Source: an uncultured Bacteroidales bacterium
Lineage (GTDB): Bacteria > Bacteroidota > Bacteroidia > Bacteroidales > UBA932
NCBI GenBank assembly: GCA_946187865.1
Contig: CAMHST010000005.1
Coordinates: 1-64,000 of the forward strand
Direction of reading: 5' to 3'
Length of the DNA: 64,000 bases
Below are positions 7,961-59,690 of this stretch, in pieces (the stretch's first letter is position 1; every line of letters begins with the position of its first letter). The position numbers and the translations under genes are program-made. The notes under the pieces were generated by a model. It worked only from the letters and a program-made list of their open reading frames with translations. It had not been told where the DNA came from and did not search any database.

Positions 7961-9466
7961 ATGAGAGCACTTTATCTGACCAATACACTTAGCCGCAATA
8001 AGGAATTGTTCAAGCCCATCCATGAAGGTCATGTGGGCATGTATGTTTGCGGGCCAACCGTTTACGGAGACGCCCATCTGGGCCACGCCCGTCCGGGTGT
8101 CACCTACGATGTCCTGTTCCGCCTGCTGAAATATCTGGGTTACAAGGTCCGTTACGTCCGTAACATCACGGATGTGGGCCATCTGGAGCACGACGCCGAC
8201 GAAGGTGAGGATAAAATTGCCAAGAAAGCCCGCCTGGAGCAGTTGGAACCCATGGAAGTGGTACAGTATTATACGGAACGCTACCATGAGGCCATGCGGC
8301 TTCTCAATGTGGAATCCCCTTCCATCGAACCCCGAGCTTCCGGCCATATCATCGAGCAGATAGAAACCGTCAAGAAAATCCTGGCTGCCGGCTATGCCTA
8401 TGAGTCCAACGGTTCGGTGTATTTCGATGTAGAAAAGTACAACCGGGACCACAAATATGGCATTCTGTCCGGCCGGTCCCTGGAAGCCACCCTGGAGGGC
8501 ACCCGTTCGCTGGACGGACAGGGAGACAAGAAGGCCCCCTACGATTTCGCCATCTGGAAAAAGGCGGAGCCGGAGCATATCATGCGCTGGCCGTCGCCCT
8601 GGGGAGAGGGTTTCCCGGGCTGGCACCTGGAATGCTCGGTGATGGGAGAGAAGTACCTGGGCAAAGAGTTCGACATCCACGGCGGCGGAATGGATCTGAT
8701 GTTCCCGCACCACGAATGCGAGATTGCCCAGAATGTGGCGTCCCGGGGAACCAGCGGCGTGCATTACTGGGTGCACAACAACATGATTACCATCAACGGG
8801 CAGAAGATGGGAAAGTCCCTCGGGAACTTCATTACGCTCCCGGAACTGTTCAGCGGGAATCATCCCGCCCTGAGCCAGGCCTATACGCCCATGACCGTGC
8901 GTTTCTTCATCCTGCAGGCCCACTATCGCAGCACGCTGGACTTCTCCAACGAAGCGCTTCAGGCGGCCGAAAAGGGCTATAAGCGCCTGATGCAGGCCTG
9001 GAGGGCATTGGGCTCGGAGGAGGCGGAGGCGCCTTTCTCCGGAGCATCGGCCTTTATCTCTGCAGAGGAGAAAGGCGTCTCCGCCTCCCCTGCCGTGAAA
9101 GCCATCATCGAGGCCGTGGAGGATGCCCTGTGCGACGATCTGAATACGCCCGTGGCCATCGCCCACTTGTTCGATGCCGTGAAGCTCATCAACGGCGGCT
9201 CGCTGTCGCAGGAGGATAAGTCGGCCCTCTCCACGCTGTTCAACCAGGTGGTAGGCGGCGTTCTGGGGCTGAAAGATGAGGAAGCCGGCGCTTCCGGCAA
9301 GGCGGAAAAGGCTTTGGAAGGGGTGATGGAGCTGGTGCTGGAGTCCCGCAAAAAAGCGAGGGAAGAGAAGAACTGGGCAGAGAGCGACAGGATCAGGGAT
9401 TTGCTCTCCTCTTTCGGGATAACGGTGAAAGATACCAAGGACGGCGCCACATGGACACTGGATTAA
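7961..9466 (+). CDS. cysS: Cysteine--tRNA ligase
   Basis: [44 protein letters not shown] motifs. Confidence 0.97.
9019..9088 (+). repeat. 70-bp palindromic element inside the cysS coding sequence
   Basis: 22-nt arms (GGAGGCGGAGGCGCCTTTCTCC / GGAGAAAGGCGTCTCCGCCTCC, 1 mismatch) around a loop containing GCATCGGCCTTTATCTCTGC. Confidence 0.8.
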
Positions 9467-16486: not shown

Positions 16487-17221
16487 CTATAAAGCGCCTG
16501 CCTGCCGCTGGCGGACGGCTTCGAAAAGGAGGATAGCGGCCGATACGGACACATTCAGGCTGTCCAGGCTGCCCAGCATGGGTATGCGGATGTGGGCCGT
16601 GGCGGCCTTCCGCCAACTGTCGGTGAGCCCGGTGGATTCGGTGCCCATTACCAGGGCTGTGCCGCGCCGCATATCTGTATCGTAATAGAGGGAAGAATCC
16701 TGTAACTGGGCTGTAAGGATCTGGATGCCGTTCGCCTGCAAGAAGCGGATGGCGTCTTCCGACGAGCAGGCTATGGTGGGAACGGTAAAGACTGCGCCGA
16801 TGGAAGCGCGGATCAGGTTGGGATTGTAAAGGTCTGTCAGCGGGTCGCAGACAAGGACGGCATCGGCCCGGGCTGCATCCGCACTGCGCAGCACCGCGCC
16901 CAGGTTCCCGGGTTTCTCCACGCTCTCCAGCACCATCACGAGCGGATTCTCCGGCAAGTGCAAATCCTTCAGTTCCAGCGACTTGTATGCAACCTCCGCG
17001 ATAATTCCCTCCGTGCTTTCCCGATAAGCCACCTTCCGGTACAGTACCTCCGGTATTTCCACCATCAATGGCTCAACCTCACCGGAAAAACCATTCCTCC
17101 AGGAGGCATCGGCCTTCAGGAGACCGGCGCCTTTGTCGGGGCAGATCTCCGGGCACACGAACAGGGTGCGCAGTTGGAATCCGGCGGCCAGGCAATGCTC
17201 CAGCTCCCGTCGGCCTTCCAC
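16487..17221 (-). CDS. TrmH/SpoU-family RNA methyltransferase
   Basis: VLESVEKPGNLGAVLRSADAA, LIRASIGAVFTVP, GTESTGLTDSWRKAATAHIRIPMLGSLDSLNVSVSAAILLFE. Confidence 0.92.
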   Translation of the reverse strand: MEGRRELEHCLAAGFQLRTLFVCPEICPDKGAGLLKADASWRNGFSGEVEPLMVEIPEVLYRKVAYRESTEGIIAEVAYKSLELKDLHLPENPLVMVLESVEKPGNLGAVLRSADAARADAVLVCDPLTDLYNPNLIRASIGAVFTVPTIACSSEDAIRFLQANGIQILTAQLQDSSLYYDTDMRRGTALVMGTESTGLTDSWRKAATAHIRIPMLGSLDSLNVSVSAAILLFEAVRQRQAGAL

Positions 17222-30636: not shown

Positions 30637-30717
30637 TTACGCATTTTTGACCATTTTCGCGTAACGCCGTGTACCCCCGGTACAGGTTGTTACGCGTTTT
30701 TGGCCGATAATGCGTAA
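30637..30717 (+). repeat. 81-bp dyad-symmetric intergenic element, copy 1
   Basis: TTACGC-N16-GCGTAA / CGCCG / TGTACC-CCC-GGTACA / GGTTG / TTACGC-N16-GCGTAA, centred exactly on 30677. Confidence 0.85.
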
Positions 30718-33075: not shown

Positions 33076-33114
33076 GCGCGCTCTCTTCCGCCTCCCGTTC
33101 TAACGTCAACCCTA

Positions 33115-33195
33115 TAACGCATTTTCGGCATTTTTCGCGTAACAACCTGTACCGGGGGTACACGGTGTTACGCGAAAATGGTCAAAAATGCGTAA
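33115..33195 (-). repeat. 81-bp dyad-symmetric intergenic element, copy 2 (inverted relative to copy 1)
   Basis: Reverse complement aligns gap-free with 30637-30717 at about 72/81 positions (hand count), centred on 33155. Confidence 0.85.
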
Positions 33196-33243
33196 TGAGG
33201 CGGCCTTGGTGCAAGGAACCGCGAAAGGCCACGAAACGGGGGG

Positions 33244-36021
33244 CTAGAACAGGGTGGGTTCCCAGTCCGAGAAATCTACCGCCCCGTTGTCGTCCGGGTT
33301 TTGGCCGTCCGACGGGTCCTGGGGCTTGAGCAAGGCCGACGACTGGCCGGTTTGCTCGATGGGCGTTCCGGCGCCGGGCGTCTCTTCCGGGAAATCATCT
33401 TCGATATCCACATCCATGGGCTCCGGTTCCGGGGCGGGTTCTGCGTCGTCTTCCGGTTTATGGAGCGGCTCTCCGAATTCGACGGTTTTGAGGTCGTACG
33501 GGGAGCACTTCTTGCCCTTGGCCGTGAGTCCTTTCTTGGCGATGAATTCCTCTGCGTCAAGTGTTTCCGGTTCCCGATGCTCGAACTTTCCGCCGAAGGT
33601 CATGACCACCTGAGGGTGCAGGTCGGAGGAAATGTCCACCAGTTTGGAGCCCCGGGCGTCGGAGATGAACAGCAGCGGGGAGTTGTTGCTTTCGGTGAAG
33701 CTGAAGCGCTTCACATAGAAGGCTTTGGCCGCGTTGTCCCAGTACAGGACCGTGTACACCCGGCCGGGATCGAATTTTTCTATCCGCACGACATCGCCCT
33801 GGTACTTGTTCACCAGGTCGTAGGTGGTGGTGTAATAGGAGCCGTCGGCAAAGATGGCCAGCACGCGGTCTTGTCCGGAGAATTTGCCCAGGTGCGTGCC
33901 GCGGCCGTCTTCGTTCAGGCGCTGGATATCAGGGTCGTACCAGATGTCTTTCCCCTCCAGGGTGGTGATGCCTTTGGATTTAAGTTGGATACGGGCGATG
34001 GGGTTTTTGGTGACCAGGTTGCCGCGCGACGCTTTCCCCTTGATGGCGAGGGCGGCGAAATCCCATTCCAGCTGGGATTTCTTGAGCCCTTTCTTGGGGC
34101 GCAGGCTGATCCGAACCGTCTCTGCCTCTCCGTTGTGGTTCACCGTGAACCAGAGAATCTTGGAGCCCTCCGCCCCGGTGGTGATGTCGTAATCCTTATC
34201 CCGGGTAATGGAGGTGATGGCGAAGCGTTTGGCATAATAGGCCGGGCCTTTCCCTTCCCGGTAAATCACGTTGTAAATGGTGCGCTCGTCTCCCCGGTTG
34301 AAAACACCGGCGTAAAGGAGGTCTTTCCCGAAGAAGGCTTTGTCGCTTACCTTGGTCACCCGGTATTTGCCGTCCCGGCCGATGACGATGATCTCGCTCA
34401 GGTCCGAGCATTCGCTGACAAACTCGCCGCCGTCGTCCCGCTTGAGGCCGATTCCCACAAAGCCCTCTGCCAGGTTGGCGTAGAGCTTGGCGTTGTTGGA
34501 GACCACTTTGGTAACCGTAATGTTTTCCAGCGAGGAGATTTCCGTGAGCCGGGGCCAGGCCTTTCCGTATTTTTTCTTCAGGCCCTGGAACCACTCGATG
34601 GTGACATCTGTCATGCGGGAAAGCTTGTCCCGGATGTCTTTCATCTGGTCTTCGATGGCGTAGATTTTCTCGTCCAGGGCTTTGGTGTCGAACTTGGAGA
34701 TCTTCCGCACCGGTTTCTCTACCAGCTTCAGGATATCCTCCATGGTGATGGGCCTGTGCAGCAGGTCCTGGTACTGGAGCATCTGGCTCAGGACGTCCTG
34801 CAGCTGCTCTTCCCAGCTGAGCTGGTTCTGTTCCAGCACCTTATAAATGCGGTTCTCGAAGAAGATGCGCTCCAGGGAGCTGTAGTGCCAGTCGTCTTCC
34901 AGTTCTCCCAGTTTCACGTTCAGCTCTGCCTCCAGGATGTCGCGGGTGTGCCAGGTGTCGTATTCCAGGATTTCGTTCACGGTAAGGAATACCGGCTTGT
35001 TTTCCCGGATGACGCAGGCATTGGGCGCGATCTTGGTCTCGCATTCGGTGAAGGCATACAGGGCGTCGATGGTTTTGTCCGGGGAGACATCGGCGGGAAG
35101 ATGGATCACAATCTCCACCTTGTCGGTGGTCATGTCTTCTATCTTCTTGATATTGATCTTCTTCTTGTCCTTTGCCTTGAGGATGCTGTCGATAATGGCG
35201 TGGGAGGTTTTCCCGTAGGGGATCTCCGTGATGGTGATGGTGGACTTGTCTACCTTGTTGATCCGGGCCCGCACCTTGACCATGCCGCCGCGCTTGCCCT
35301 GGTTGTACTTGGAACAGTCGGCGATGCCGCCGGTGGGGAAGTCCGGCAGCAGGGTGTAGGGCTGGGAGCGGAGGATGGCGATGGAGGCGTCTATGAGCTC
35401 GTTGAAGTTGTGGGGGAGGATCTTGGAGGAAAGGCCGGCGGCGATACCCTCCGTGCCCTGGGCCAGCAGCAGCGGGAAGCGGACGGGCAGTTCCGTGGGC
35501 TCCTGGTTGCGGCCGTCGTAGGAGGTCATCCAGGGGGTGACTTTGGGGTCGAAGACCACCTCTTTGGCAAATTTGGAAAGCCGGGCCTCGATGTATCGGG
35601 GGGCGGCGTTGGAGTCTCCCGTGAGAATGTTGCCCCAGTTTCCCTGGCAGTCGATCAGGAGGCCTTTCTGCCCCAGCGTGACCAGGGCGCCCAGGATAGA
35701 GGCGTCGCCGTGGGGATGGTACTGCATGGCCTGGCCCACGATGTTGGCCACCTTGGTGTAGCGGCCGTCGTCCATGGTGAACATGGTATGCAGCACGCGG
35801 CGTTGCACGGGCTTGAACCCGTCTACGATATGCGGAACGGCACGGTCCAGGATGGTATAGGAGGCGTAGTCCAGATACCAGTCCTTGAACATGCCGGAAA
35901 GCTTGTATTTCCGGCTGTCGCTGCCCAGCAGGCGGTCAAATTTCCCGGACGCAACGGCATCCTCTCCCAATTCTTCTTCGGGTTCTTCCTGATTGTCAAT
36001 TTCTTCCCAATCCTCTGCCAT
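33244..36021 (-). CDS. parC: DNA topoisomerase IV subunit A (GyrA/ParC family)
   Basis: YASYTILDRAVPHIVDGFKPVQRRVLHTMF, YHPHGDASI, active-site region NAAPRYIEARLSKFA. Confidence 0.93.
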   Translation of the reverse strand: MAEDWEEIDNQEEPEEELGEDAVASGKFDRLLGSDSRKYKLSGMFKDWYLDYASYTILDRAVPHIVDGFKPVQRRVLHTMFTMDDGRYTKVANIVGQAMQYHPHGDASILGALVTLGQKGLLIDCQGNWGNILTGDSNAAPRYIEARLSKFAKEVVFDPKVTPWMTSYDGRNQEPTELPVRFPLLLAQGTEGIAAGLSSKILPHNFNELIDASIAILRSQPYTLLPDFPTGGIADCSKYNQGKRGGMVKVRARINKVDKSTITITEIPYGKTSHAIIDSILKAKDKKKINIKKIEDMTTDKVEIVIHLPADVSPDKTIDALYAFTECETKIAPNACVIRENKPVFLTVNEILEYDTWHTRDILEAELNVKLGELEDDWHYSSLERIFFENRIYKVLEQNQLSWEEQLQDVLSQMLQYQDLLHRPITMEDILKLVEKPVRKISKFDTKALDEKIYAIEDQMKDIRDKLSRMTDVTIEWFQGLKKKYGKAWPRLTEISSLENITVTKVVSNNAKLYANLAEGFVGIGLKRDDGGEFVSECSDLSEIIVIGRDGKYRVTKVSDKAFFGKDLLYAGVFNRGDERTIYNVIYREGKGPAYYAKRFAITSITRDKDYDITTGAEGSKILWFTVNHNGEAETVRISLRPKKGLKKSQLEWDFAALAIKGKASRGNLVTKNPIARIQLKSKGITTLEGKDIWYDPDIQRLNEDGRGTHLGKFSGQDRVLAIFADGSYYTTTYDLVNKYQGDVVRIEKFDPGRVYTVLYWDNAAKAFYVKRFSFTESNNSPLLFISDARGSKLVDISSDLHPQVVMTFGGKFEHREPETLDAEEFIAKKGLTAKGKKCSPYDLKTVEFGEPLHKPEDDAEPAPEPEPMDVDIEDDFPEETPGAGTPIEQTGQSSALLKPQDPSDGQNPDDNGAVDFSDWEPTLF

Positions 36022-36035
36022 AGTGTTTTTCTCGC

Positions 36036-36917
36036 TTAAAACTCATACCCGAAGCGGCGGAGTTCCTTGCGGTTCTCGCGCCAGTCGGGGTCCACTTTCA
36101 CAAATGTACTCAAAAAAACTTTTTTCTGGAAGAAATCTTCCATGTCCAGGCGAGCCTCGGTGCCCACTTTCTTGAGCATTTTTCCGCCTTTTCCGATGAT
36201 GATCCCTTTCTGCGAATCCCGCATCACATAGATGACGGCGCTGATCTCGTAGCGGTCTTCCCCTTCGTGGAAGGCCTCGATCTCTACCTGGCAGCTGTAG
36301 GGGATTTCCTCGCTGTAGTTCAGGAAAATCTTCTCCCGCAGGATCTCGGAGGCGAAGAAACGGAGGTTCTTGTCCGTGAACTGCTCTTTGTCGAACCAGG
36401 CCGGCGCTTCCGGCAGGCGGGAAGAAACCGCCTCCAGGATGCTTTCCAGATTGAATTTCTCCTGGGCCGATGCCGGGATGATCAGGGCTTTGGGCAACTG
36501 CTCTTTCCACCACTGCATCAGTTCCACCACCTTTTCCTGGGAAGAGAGGTCGATCTTGTTGATGACCAGGATCACCGGGCACTCCAGTTTCTGGAGCTTG
36601 GCTATATAGGCGTCGTTTTTGTCGGCCTTTTCCACGGTGTCGGTCACATACAGGATGATGTCCGCGTCGCCGATGGCGGTGTCTACGAAGCTGAGCATGT
36701 TCTGCTGGAGCCGATAGCTGGGCTTCAGGATGCCCGGCGTGTCGGAGTACACGATCTGGTAGTCTTCCCCGCTCACGATGCCCATGATCCGGTGCCGGGT
36801 GGTCTGGGCCTTGGCGGTGACGATGGAAAGCTTTTCGCCCACCAGTGCATTCATGAGCGTGGATTTGCCCACGTTCGGATTGCCGATGATATTGACAAAA
36901 CCAGCCCTGTGTGCCAT
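36036..36917 (-). CDS. era: GTPase Era
   Basis: NIIGNPNVGKSTLMNAL, SDTPGIL, NKIDL, C-terminal KH region (VIYVMRDSQKGIIIGKGGKMLKKVGTEAR). Confidence 0.96.
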   Translation of the reverse strand: MAHRAGFVNIIGNPNVGKSTLMNALVGEKLSIVTAKAQTTRHRIMGIVSGEDYQIVYSDTPGILKPSYRLQQNMLSFVDTAIGDADIILYVTDTVEKADKNDAYIAKLQKLECPVILVINKIDLSSQEKVVELMQWWKEQLPKALIIPASAQEKFNLESILEAVSSRLPEAPAWFDKEQFTDKNLRFFASEILREKIFLNYSEEIPYSCQVEIEAFHEGEDRYEISAVIYVMRDSQKGIIIGKGGKMLKKVGTEARLDMEDFFQKKVFLSTFVKVDPDWRENRKELRRFGYEF

Positions 36918-50792: not shown

Positions 50793-51383
50793 ATGAAAGA
50801 CAGAAAACTGCTCAATATAGAACTGGGGCGCATGTCGGCCGAAGCATACCGGAACAAGCCGGAAAGCGGCATTGTGCTGGTGCTGGACAACATCCGCAGC
50901 GCCCATAATGTGGGCAGCGCTTTCCGGACGGGGGACGCCTTCGGGGTGGACAAGATCTACCTGGGCGGCATCTGCCCGGTTCCACCCTCCCCGGAGCTCA
51001 GGAAAGTGGCCCTCGGGGCAGAGGAAACCGTTCCCTTCGAACATGTGCAGGATGTGCCCGCCCTGGTCAGGCGCCTGCAGGGCTGCGGATATACTGTCGT
51101 AGCCGTGGAACAGACGGTCCACTCCGTGAAACTGGACGGGTTCCAGGCAGGAACAGGGAAGGGCGTTTCCGCTGTGCATCGGCCTTCTTCTTGCACAGCG
51201 GAAACACCCTTTCCTGTCCGCTACGCCTTCGTTTTCGGCAACGAGGTGGACGGCGTGCAGCAGGAGGTGGTGGATGCCTGCGATTTTGCCCTGGAAATCC
51301 CCCAGCGGGGCACCAAGCACTCCCTGAATGTGTCCGTAAGTATCGGCGTAGTGCTCTGGGGAGCCGTTTTTGCAAGTAAATGA
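50793..51383 (+). CDS. TrmH/SpoU-family RNA methyltransferase
   Basis: VLDNIRSAHNVGSAFRTGDAFGVDKIYLGG, FVFGNEVDGVQQEVVDACDFALEIPQRGTKHSLNVSVSIGVVLW. Confidence 0.93.
   Translation: MKDRKLLNIELGRMSAEAYRNKPESGIVLVLDNIRSAHNVGSAFRTGDAFGVDKIYLGGICPVPPSPELRKVALGAEETVPFEHVQDVPALVRRLQGCGYTVVAVEQTVHSVKLDGFQAGTGKGVSAVHRPSSCTAETPFPVRYAFVFGNEVDGVQQEVVDACDFALEIPQRGTKHSLNVSVSIGVVLWGAVFASK
51150..51219 (+). repeat. 70-bp palindromic element inside the TrmH-family coding sequence
   Basis: GGAACAGGGAAGGGCGTTTCCGCTGTGCA - tcggccttcttct - TGCACAGCGGAAACACCCTTTCCTGTCC; arms pair almost fully. Confidence 0.85.
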
Positions 51384-57482: not shown

Positions 57483-59690
57483 TTATCCGATTTGTGCGCC
57501 GTTGGTGACGACTTCCTGCGGGGTGATGAAACGCATCTTCCCGTCTCCCTGCTTTGCCATCAGGATCATACCCTTGGATTCGATGCCGCGGATTACGCGC
57601 GGGGCCAGGTTGGCCAGGATGCAGATCTGTTTCCCGAGCATGTCCTCCGGGCTGTAATACTCCGCAATGCCGGAAACGATTGTCCGCTGGTCGATACCGG
57701 TATCGATGGTCAGTTTCAGGAGTTTGTCCGTCTTGGGAACGCGTTCCGCCGCCAGCACCGTAGCGGTACGGATATCCATGGCCCCAAACTGGTCGAAGGT
57801 GACTTCGGCCTTCTGCGGTTCCACCTTTTTGGCGGCTTCGGCTGCAGCCTTTGCGGCCTCGGCGGCCTCGCGGGCTTTCTTGATAGCCTCCAGTTTTGCC
57901 GTCTGCGCCTCGATCTCGGCATCCTCGATTTTGCGGAACAGAAGCACGGCTTCTCCAAGCTGATGGCCGGCAGGGATGAGTTCGGCATCCCCCAGCTGCT
58001 CCCACCGAAGCACCAAGTCAGAAGGACATACCCCCTGAGGAGCATCGGCCTTCTTATTTGCGACGAAGGGGACCGTGTGCACGGCCTTGCCTTCACCTTC
58101 CTTGAAGAAATTCACGGTGGGGGCGCCTTCGCCGGCACGGTGGTCCGTTCCCGCATCAATCCCCACGCGGAGGATGCCACGTAACTTTTCCGCGCTGAAG
58201 GGCGTGAACGGTTCAAACGCGATGGCCAGGTCTGCGCAGAGCTGCAGGCAGGTGTACAAGATGCTGGCGCAGCGGTCCATGTCCTCTTTCGCCACCTTCC
58301 AGGGCTCCATGTCGGAGATGTATTTGTTGCCGATACGGGCCATGTTCATGGCCTCCTTGAGAGCCTCGCGGAAGTGATACGTCTCGATGTATTTCTCCAG
58401 CGCCTCCCGGCAGGGTTTCACGGCGGCAAGTGTCTCGGCGTCGATCGCCTCCGGCTTCAGGTTCCGAGGAACGGCACCGCCGAAATACTTCTGCGTGAGC
58501 ACCACGGCCCGGTTCACGAAGTTGCCCAGCACGGCAACCAGTTCGGAGTTGTTCCGGCTCTGGAAGTCTTTCCAGGTGAAGTCGTTGTCCTTGGTCTCCG
58601 GGGCATTGGCCGTGAGGACGTAGCGCAGCACGTCTTCCTCTCCGGGGAAATCCCTTTCGTATTCATCCACCCATACGGCCCAGCCGCGGGAGGTGGAAAT
58701 CTTGTCGCCTTCCAGATTCAGGAACTCATTGGACGGTACATTGTCCGGCAGGATGTAGTCTCCATAGGCCTTCAACATGGACGGGAACACAATGCAGTGG
58801 AACACGATATTGTCTTTGCCGATAAAGTGAACCAGCCGGGTCTCAGGGTCTTTCCACCACTTCTCCCAGCTTTCCGGAAGAAGTTCCTTGGTGTTGGAGA
58901 TATAGCCGATGGGGGCGTCGAACCAGACGTAAAGCACCTTGCCTTCCGCGCCTTCTACCGGAACGGGAACGCCCCAGTCCAGGTCGCGGGTGACGGCGCG
59001 GGGGAGGAGGCCGCCGTCCAGCCAGCTCTTGCACTGGCCGTACACATTGGTTTTCCACTCCTTGTGCTGCTCCAGGATCCAGTCGCGGAGCCAGGGCTCG
59101 TACTTGTCCAGGGGAAGGTACCAGTGCTTGGTTTTCTTCTTCACCGGCACGGTGCCGCTCAGGCGCGACTTCGGTTCCAGCAGCTCTTCAGGAGAAAGGG
59201 TGGAACCACACTTCTCGCACTGGTCGCCGTAGGCATGCGGATTGCCGCACTTGGGGCAGATTCCCTCGATGAGGCGGTCTGTCAGGAACATTTTGGCCTC
59301 CTGGTCATAGAGCTGCTCAGACTCCTTGACAATGAAGTCGTCCTGGTCATAGAGCTTGCGGAAGAACTCGGAAGCATTCTCTGTATGCACCTGGGAAGAG
59401 GTCCTGGAATAAATGTCGAAGTTGATCCCAAGGCCCGCAAAGGCGTCCTTCATGATTTTGTGGTACTTGTCCACGATATCCTGCGGCGTGACACCCTGGT
59501 CTTTCGCCTTGATGGTGATGGGCACGCCGTGCTCGTCGCTGCCGCAGATAAACAGCACATCCTCTCCCCGCATGCGGAGGTAACGGACATAGATGTCGCC
59601 GGGGATGTAGGCACCGGCCAGGTGGCCGATATGGACAGGACCGTTGGCATAGGGGAGTGCACAGGTCACGAGAGTTCTTTTATGGCTCAT
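57483..59690 (-). CDS. metG: Methionine--tRNA ligase with C-terminal EMAP-like tRNA-binding domain
   Basis: [26 protein letters not shown], Zn-binding [32 protein letters not shown]-term [31 protein letters not shown]. Confidence 0.97.
58017..58086 (-). repeat. Probable degenerate third copy of the in-CDS 70-bp element, in metG
   Basis: Contains GCATCGGCCTTCTTATTTGC (58042-58061), matching the cysS and TrmH loops; flanking arms pair weakly (CCCCT/AGGGG). Confidence 0.4.

Follow-up and report, generated by a model that had tools for sequence, protein, structure and literature searches.

The locus raises the question of how a long and almost fully paired palindrome comes to lie within the coding sequence of an RNA methyltransferase, and whether it belongs to a wider set of such structures. 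The sequence analysed, referred to here as the window, is a stretch of 64,000 nucleotides from a Bacteroidales genome designated G000, and the features discussed are collected in Table 1. The analysis identified the palindrome as one copy of a small dispersed palindromic DNA family, which is present in hundreds of copies and lies in frame in ordinary proteins of a gut and rumen Bacteroidales genus.

The trmH hairpin and its host protein

The original prediction placed a 70-nt palindrome inside an intact TrmH-family reading frame. The reading frame was found to be open throughout, its product matched the Pfam family SpoU_methylase (PF00588, E 2.9e-32), and the predicted arrangement was thus confirmed. 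The two arms, at positions 51153-51178 and 51192-51217, are 26 nt each and 92% complementary, with 13 nt between them. Folding of the 70-nt segment gave free energies of -48.3 and -49.2 kcal/mol on the two strands (z-scores of -8.65 and -10.05, respectively), and none of 200 shuffled sequences folded as well, so the hairpin can be taken as real. Hairpin scores of 21 and 19.5 were observed for trmH and for a second structure in cysS, respectively; triplet-shuffled windows yielded 0.03 hairpins per 64 kb at a score of at least 15, with a maximum of 15.

Alignment of 19 TrmH proteins from one genus revealed that 16 lack exactly 19 residues (124-142 of the G000 protein), which are present in G000 and in two related genomes, G180 and G187. 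The expectation that relatives would lack an insertion was therefore borne out, although its size is 19 residues rather than the 20-24 anticipated. The congeneric orthologs without the palindrome lack the segment altogether, as opposed to carrying it without palindromic symmetry, and the G187 copy has other arms but retains the palindrome. The palindrome extends a few nucleotides past the 57-nt insertion, into native sequence. In the AlphaFold model of TrmH (mean pLDDT 82.4), residues 125-139 have pLDDT values below 50 and lie directly ahead of a strand at residues 143-150, and the inserted segment is accordingly predicted to be a disordered linker.

Table 1. Positions of the trmH palindrome, its host gene and related sites in the 64-kb window
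Feature	Position	Strand	Remarks
trmH/spoU-family RNA methyltransferase gene	50793..51383	+	196 aa, host of insertion; open ORF, Pfam match, 18 congeneric orthologs align
Palindrome in trmH, whole segment	51150-51219		70 nt
Left arm of trmH palindrome	51150..51175	+	outer part GGAACAGGGAAG resembles native sequence
Family-1 core/loop in trmH	51176..51194	-	19 nt, GCATCGGCCTTCTTCTTGC; common coding orientation reads GCAAGAAGAAGGCCGATGC; inner 13 nt inverted in sister species G180
Right arm of trmH palindrome	51195..51219	+	
In-frame insertion in trmH	51162..51218	+	57 nt, residues 124-142, GVSAVHRPSSCTAETPFPV; absent from 16 congeneric orthologs
cysS, cysteinyl-tRNA synthetase gene	7961..9466	+	element between catalytic domain (residues 17-337) and DALR domain (386-437)
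Family-1 element in cysS	9019..9088	+	arms 9019-9040 and 9067-9088; core GCATCGGCCTTTATCTCTGC at 9044-9063
Third family-1 copy, in metG	58018..58083	+	degenerate; core 58042-58061
Empty site in G000	36024..36037	.	occupied in G180 by a family-1-like palindrome; intergenic, upstream of the gene at 33244-36021 (minus strand)
Second empty site in G000	17080..17124 (about 17085)	.	occupied in G180 (L401:14450)

Two loop families on variable arms

A structure of the same kind in cysS had been taken to indicate a dispersed element, and this was upheld: the cysS and trmH copies have the loop in common but not the arms. The loop GCATCGGCCTTYTTYTTGC recurs in hairpins with different arms, both in cysS and on further contigs. 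Because the arms are not shared, a DNA-similarity search of the genome with the whole trmH segment returned the segment itself as the sole match. The exact core pattern, when searched in relatives, retrieved mostly ordinary coding matches without palindromes, and a covariance model was therefore needed. With such a model, the search that had been proposed of the genome and its relatives gave 16 matches in G000 and 10 in G028, and many copies with the same loop were found in the genome and its sister species.

Two loop families were distinguished. The family-1 core, present in trmH and cysS, is near-invariant (GCAAAAAAGARGGCCGATGC), as is the family-2 core (GCGTCGCTTCGCGACCCTGTACGGGCAAATGC), and the family-2 loop GTCGCTTCGCGACCCTGTACGGGCAAAT lies inside the same kind of arms next to the truB copy and in G019. 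In the set of 133 distinct copies, arm pairing and sequence information both drop at arm position 24, so that the unit consists of about 23 nt, the core and a further 23 nt. This corresponds to 66 bp with a core of 20 or 78 bp with a core of 32, both multiples of three, and the reading frame is therefore kept. The arm consensus is alike in the two families (about CGGARGRRGATGCYYYTYCC-TCC), and many copies carry a symmetric TCC/TCC mismatch beside the core; the cysS element has a symmetric GGA/AGA mismatch at this place.

The arms vary from copy to copy with their complementarity kept. When nine copies were aligned on the loop, after removal of a single loop base from four of them to bring the arms into line, 24 of 27 arm pairs varied on both sides, and 89.7% of cells were paired versus 57% in shuffles. 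The family-2 core, by contrast, is often letter-perfect where the arms differ; among 11 family-2 copies of G019, mean divergence was 0.6% in the core versus 39% in the arms.

With reading frames assigned by length, 86 of the 133 copies fall in one clear ORF, and 35 more also lie within an ORF, but the choice of which one is ambiguous. In 78 of the 86 assignable copies, the core begins at codon position 1, in either orientation (p 1e-28). Both orientations are free of stop codons in this phase, reading AKKRADA or ASAFFFA for family 1 and ASLRDPVRANA or AFARTGSRSDA for family 2. The hosts include TrmH, CysS, TruB, the imidazoleglycerol-phosphate dehydratase protein HisB, MetG, Mur ligases, ketoacyl synthase, DnaG and DNA polymerase I (polA). 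Insertions are often located between Pfam domains, and the added peptide may be tolerated because it would fall in disordered linkers. Some copies (C14, C24) are intergenic, near gene ends.

A second covariance model detected family 1 in 48 of 400 congeneric genomes (∼12%), many of which have at least 12 copies. Family 2 was present in 49 of the 400 (∼12%), with 21 copies in G310, 14 in G186, 13 in G019, 12 in G180 and 11 in G000. The total for G000 is about 20 copies, and all such counts, obtained under scoring caps and strict filters in genomes that are drafts and mostly metagenome assemblies, are lower bounds. When 0.8 Mb of G180 was scanned for long-stem hairpins with no loop specified, about 20 were found with one of the two cores; the remaining hairpins mostly resembled terminators, with very short loops. 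In a sample of 393 genomes from the order, family 1 was absent from all 392 other genomes, among them three from the same family. Scattered single core matches in other phyla (GTDB) look like chance, and a wider spread was discounted. A phage origin was rejected on the absence of the family-2 loop from IMG/VR; the family-1 pattern gave 8 matches there.

Core units are tandemly repeated in metG and in the IGPD protein of G180 (L355 and L359), which suggests local duplication as a further way in which the element grows. At the metG site, G180 has a perfect palindrome with repeats of the core unit after it, and the G000 copy looks like the product of a deletion between repeats.

Divergence at orthologous sites

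G180 is syntenic with G000, with 87% identity over the tested window segment and many insertion sites in common. In trmH, the 13-nt loop is inverted between these two species: G000 reads TGCA-TCGGCCTTCTTCT-TGCA and G180 reads TGCA-AGATGAAGGCCGA-TGCA. Three of the 11 orthologous copies show the loop or core inverted in this way, namely trmH, cysS and one family-2 copy (L393 versus L425). Further flips were found by flank comparison in the pairs G334/G109, G166/G019 and G257/G000, at 88, 86 and 82% flank identity, respectively, and the same site carries family 1 in one species and family 2 in the other in the pairs G180/G000 (87%) and G354/G019 (86%). Orthology in this comparison is defined by flank similarity only; site pairs at lower flank identity may be independent insertions into the same gene, and some flips could be assembly errors, given the draft and mostly metagenomic state of the genomes.

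Over the 11 orthologous copies, whose alignments were cut by hand, arms differ between G000 and G180 at 93 of 446 positions (20.9%), cores at 14 of 241 (5.8%) and 4-fold sites at 222 of 721 (30.8%). Arm positions had changed on both sides in 32 cases, where 12.5 were expected on the assumption of independence within a locus, and 25 of the 32 are Watson-Crick pairs in both species. The conservation of the loop alone over copy-specific arms, the second loop family on similar arms, the single main reading phase and the inversion of the loop between sister species all go beyond the original prediction.

These changes can be explained by the following model, which we consider likely to be correct: the element is a protein-coding mobile palindrome, similar to the Rickettsia palindromic elements, the arms of which are kept perfect by template switching that also flips the loop. 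Here, once the element has inserted, the folded hairpin would cause the nascent strand to change template from one arm to the other. Synthesis templated by the opposite arm would restore a change or spread it, giving a paired change; a polymerase going round the loop would invert it; and overshoot would extend the palindrome. The conserved core may be what the mobiliser recognises, in which case the arms would need only to pair. Template switching is deduced from its outcome, and selection on pairing with compensatory mutation could also give paired changes, but not loop inversion. Conversely, the conservation of the core would not be expected from template switching (5.8% divergence versus 31% at 4-fold sites, and the low core divergence within G019). 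A more specific proposal is that the element is defined by its loop: dedicated putative machinery would recognise the short loop in a folded hairpin, the arms would have almost no fixed sequence, strand switching would rewrite them during insertion or later, and loops would be interchangeable at one site. We regard this as possible but rather doubtful.

Sites occupied in one species and empty in the other were found in both directions. The intergenic copy C24 is present in G000 but not in G180, and three G180 copies are missing from G000, two of them within the window. Clear target-site duplication was not seen at the empty sites in the comparison of G000 with G180, the flanks of which have diverged. 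The truB family-2 copy has a short new left arm, TCCGGAAA, that is the inverse of its right flank, TTTCCGGA, and G180 has this flank without the insertion. This observation, together with the likeness of the outer trmH arm to native sequence and the pairing that, in some copies, continues beyond the end of the unit, is what would be expected if the palindrome were made locally, with a conserved loop inserted and one arm formed as an inverted copy of the target flank. However, when the full arms were sought in the native flanks at C24 and at L402 and L430 of G180, neither was there, and neither arm of the corresponding G180 palindrome was found in the G000 sequence at the empty site 36024-36037. 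Moreover, a common 23-nt consensus is found in the arms of copies that are not orthologous, and the arms of families 1 and 2 are alike. Both results indicate that the arms usually travel with the core. Purely target-derived arms are thereby ruled out as a general rule, and local making of the palindrome appears unlikely, although, given the truB left arm and the near-native outermost trmH arm, conversion seems able to reach into the flank.

Template switching was also weighed against selection for a functional RNA hairpin, in which a stem-loop in the transcript would be selected, compensatory mutations would keep it paired and the conserved loop would be bound by protein or RNA. Such a role would fit the strong covariation and the combination of variable arms with a conserved loop, which is also a feature of RNA hairpins bound by proteins, as well as the intergenic position of some copies near gene ends. 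Most copies, however, are located within the coding sequences of unrelated genes, and their presence varies from one species to the next. Mismatches counted on the coding strand are more often A-C (69) than G-U (37), and the loop occurs in either orientation with respect to the transcript and flips at fixed sites; selection for RNA pairing is less likely for these reasons. Rfam gave no match to the element, its sole match in the window being a tRNA gene at positions 1-50 that is cut by the window edge. A functional RNA hairpin is thus very unlikely.

The mixed loop orientation at orthologous sites, and the different loop families at the same site with 86-87% flank identity, would also be produced if the loop were the site of a recombinase, of the invertase or integron-like type, that inverted or exchanged it as a regulated switch. 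But 13-28 nt would be a very short invertible segment for a recombinase that works on paired sites, the hosts are housekeeping genes and no recombinase was linked to the element, making this reading highly improbable. The least credible explanation is an artefact of assembly or binning in draft, mostly metagenomic genomes, in which palindromes are hard to assemble: the same sites are occupied in species that were assembled separately, with arm changes that are sequence-specific; reading frames remain open; dozens of genomes together contain 133 distinct copies; and the loop would be anchored by reads that span 70-80 bp.

One alanine-rich C-terminal tail carries a family-2 loop in G000 (L371, contig 7) and family-1 loops in G180 (L400 and L364). 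The arm bases beside the loop are similar, and exchange of the loop in place is possible.

Relation to other palindromic sequences

The closest counterparts are the Rickettsia palindromic elements, which are about 150 bp long and occur in frame in many genes, with a preferred phase, several families and an unknown mobiliser (PMC10969869, summarising Ogata 2000, 2002). The likeness that the original prediction drew to them holds for a dispersed, in-frame palindrome: both have a long inverted repeat that can fold into a hairpin, many copies, positions in frame in unrelated housekeeping proteins, a preferred reading phase (78 of 86 here) and several families. By contrast, the present element is 66 or 78 bp and its host belongs to another phylum; here the loop alone is conserved, arms are rewritten in pairs, the loop flips, and two loop families sit on similar arms. 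On this comparison by description, the element may be filed as a variant of the Rickettsia kind, with no claim of common descent.

Template switching in RNA genes leaves compensating changes with loop inversion as its strongest footprint, which is extremely rare (PMC8794818). A single event of the process described is predicted to yield multiple compensating changes, a longer stem and an inverted loop, and each of these three kinds of outcome is observed here. In contrast to those rRNA and miRNA hairpins, with loops of mostly 4-8 nt, the present loops are 13-28 nt, belong to a repeated protein-coding element and are frequently inverted.

MITEs resemble the element in being small, non-autonomous and bounded by inverted repeats, but here the conserved part is internal rather than terminal, and clear target-site duplication and a parent transposon were not found. 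REP and BIME sequences are likewise short, dispersed palindromic DNA. REP elements are linked to the Y1 (RAYT) transposase, but such a link was not found for the Bacteroidales element. A RAYT/IS200 (Y1) transposase was rejected as the mobiliser, since PF01797 had no match in G000 and similar counts were obtained in genomes with and without many copies; this search, with PF01797, yielded no candidate parent transposon or moving enzyme. In chloroplasts, small inversions between inverted repeats also invert a hairpin loop at a fixed site, but these are isolated sites, as opposed to a dispersed coding element. REPs, moreover, are extragenic and carry a GTAG/CGTC tag at one end (PMC3733652), unlike the mainly intragenic copies with a conserved loop described here.

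Protein-coding palindromes have so far been regarded as a peculiarity of Rickettsiales, and no report of them in Bacteroidales was found in the literature searched, which consisted mostly of papers available without subscription. The family offers dozens of orthologous, datable palindromes from which rates of arm conversion and loop inversion can be measured in wild bacteria, and it serves as a natural archive of the self-copying of DNA palindromes. It also exemplifies the addition of short peptides to core enzymes (CysS, TruB, DnaG and DNA polymerase I), and it presents the puzzle of a selfish element in which the loop is far better conserved than the arms.

Several other hairpins were observed. 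Two intergenic hairpins of about 80 nt in the window, at 30637-30717 and 33114-33196, are mutually inverted copies (TTTTTGACCATTTTCGCGTAACRCCGTGTACC, 0 expected by chance) that flank shikimate-kinase-like and RecJ-like ORFs; they constitute another repeat family, unrelated to the in-frame element. Related species have other long hairpins, whose arms measure 33-43 nt (L339 in G429, L178 in G375 and L435 in G180; for example, CAGTGCGGGTAGTGTCCC... and GCGGCCAAGTGCAAAAATGGCCC...), and these are possibly further palindromic repeat families. At 1501-1571 of L189 (G047), a 31-bp palindrome pairs perfectly around an A-rich loop that differs from the other two (AAAAAACTTTGGGAAAA) and perhaps represents a third loop family.
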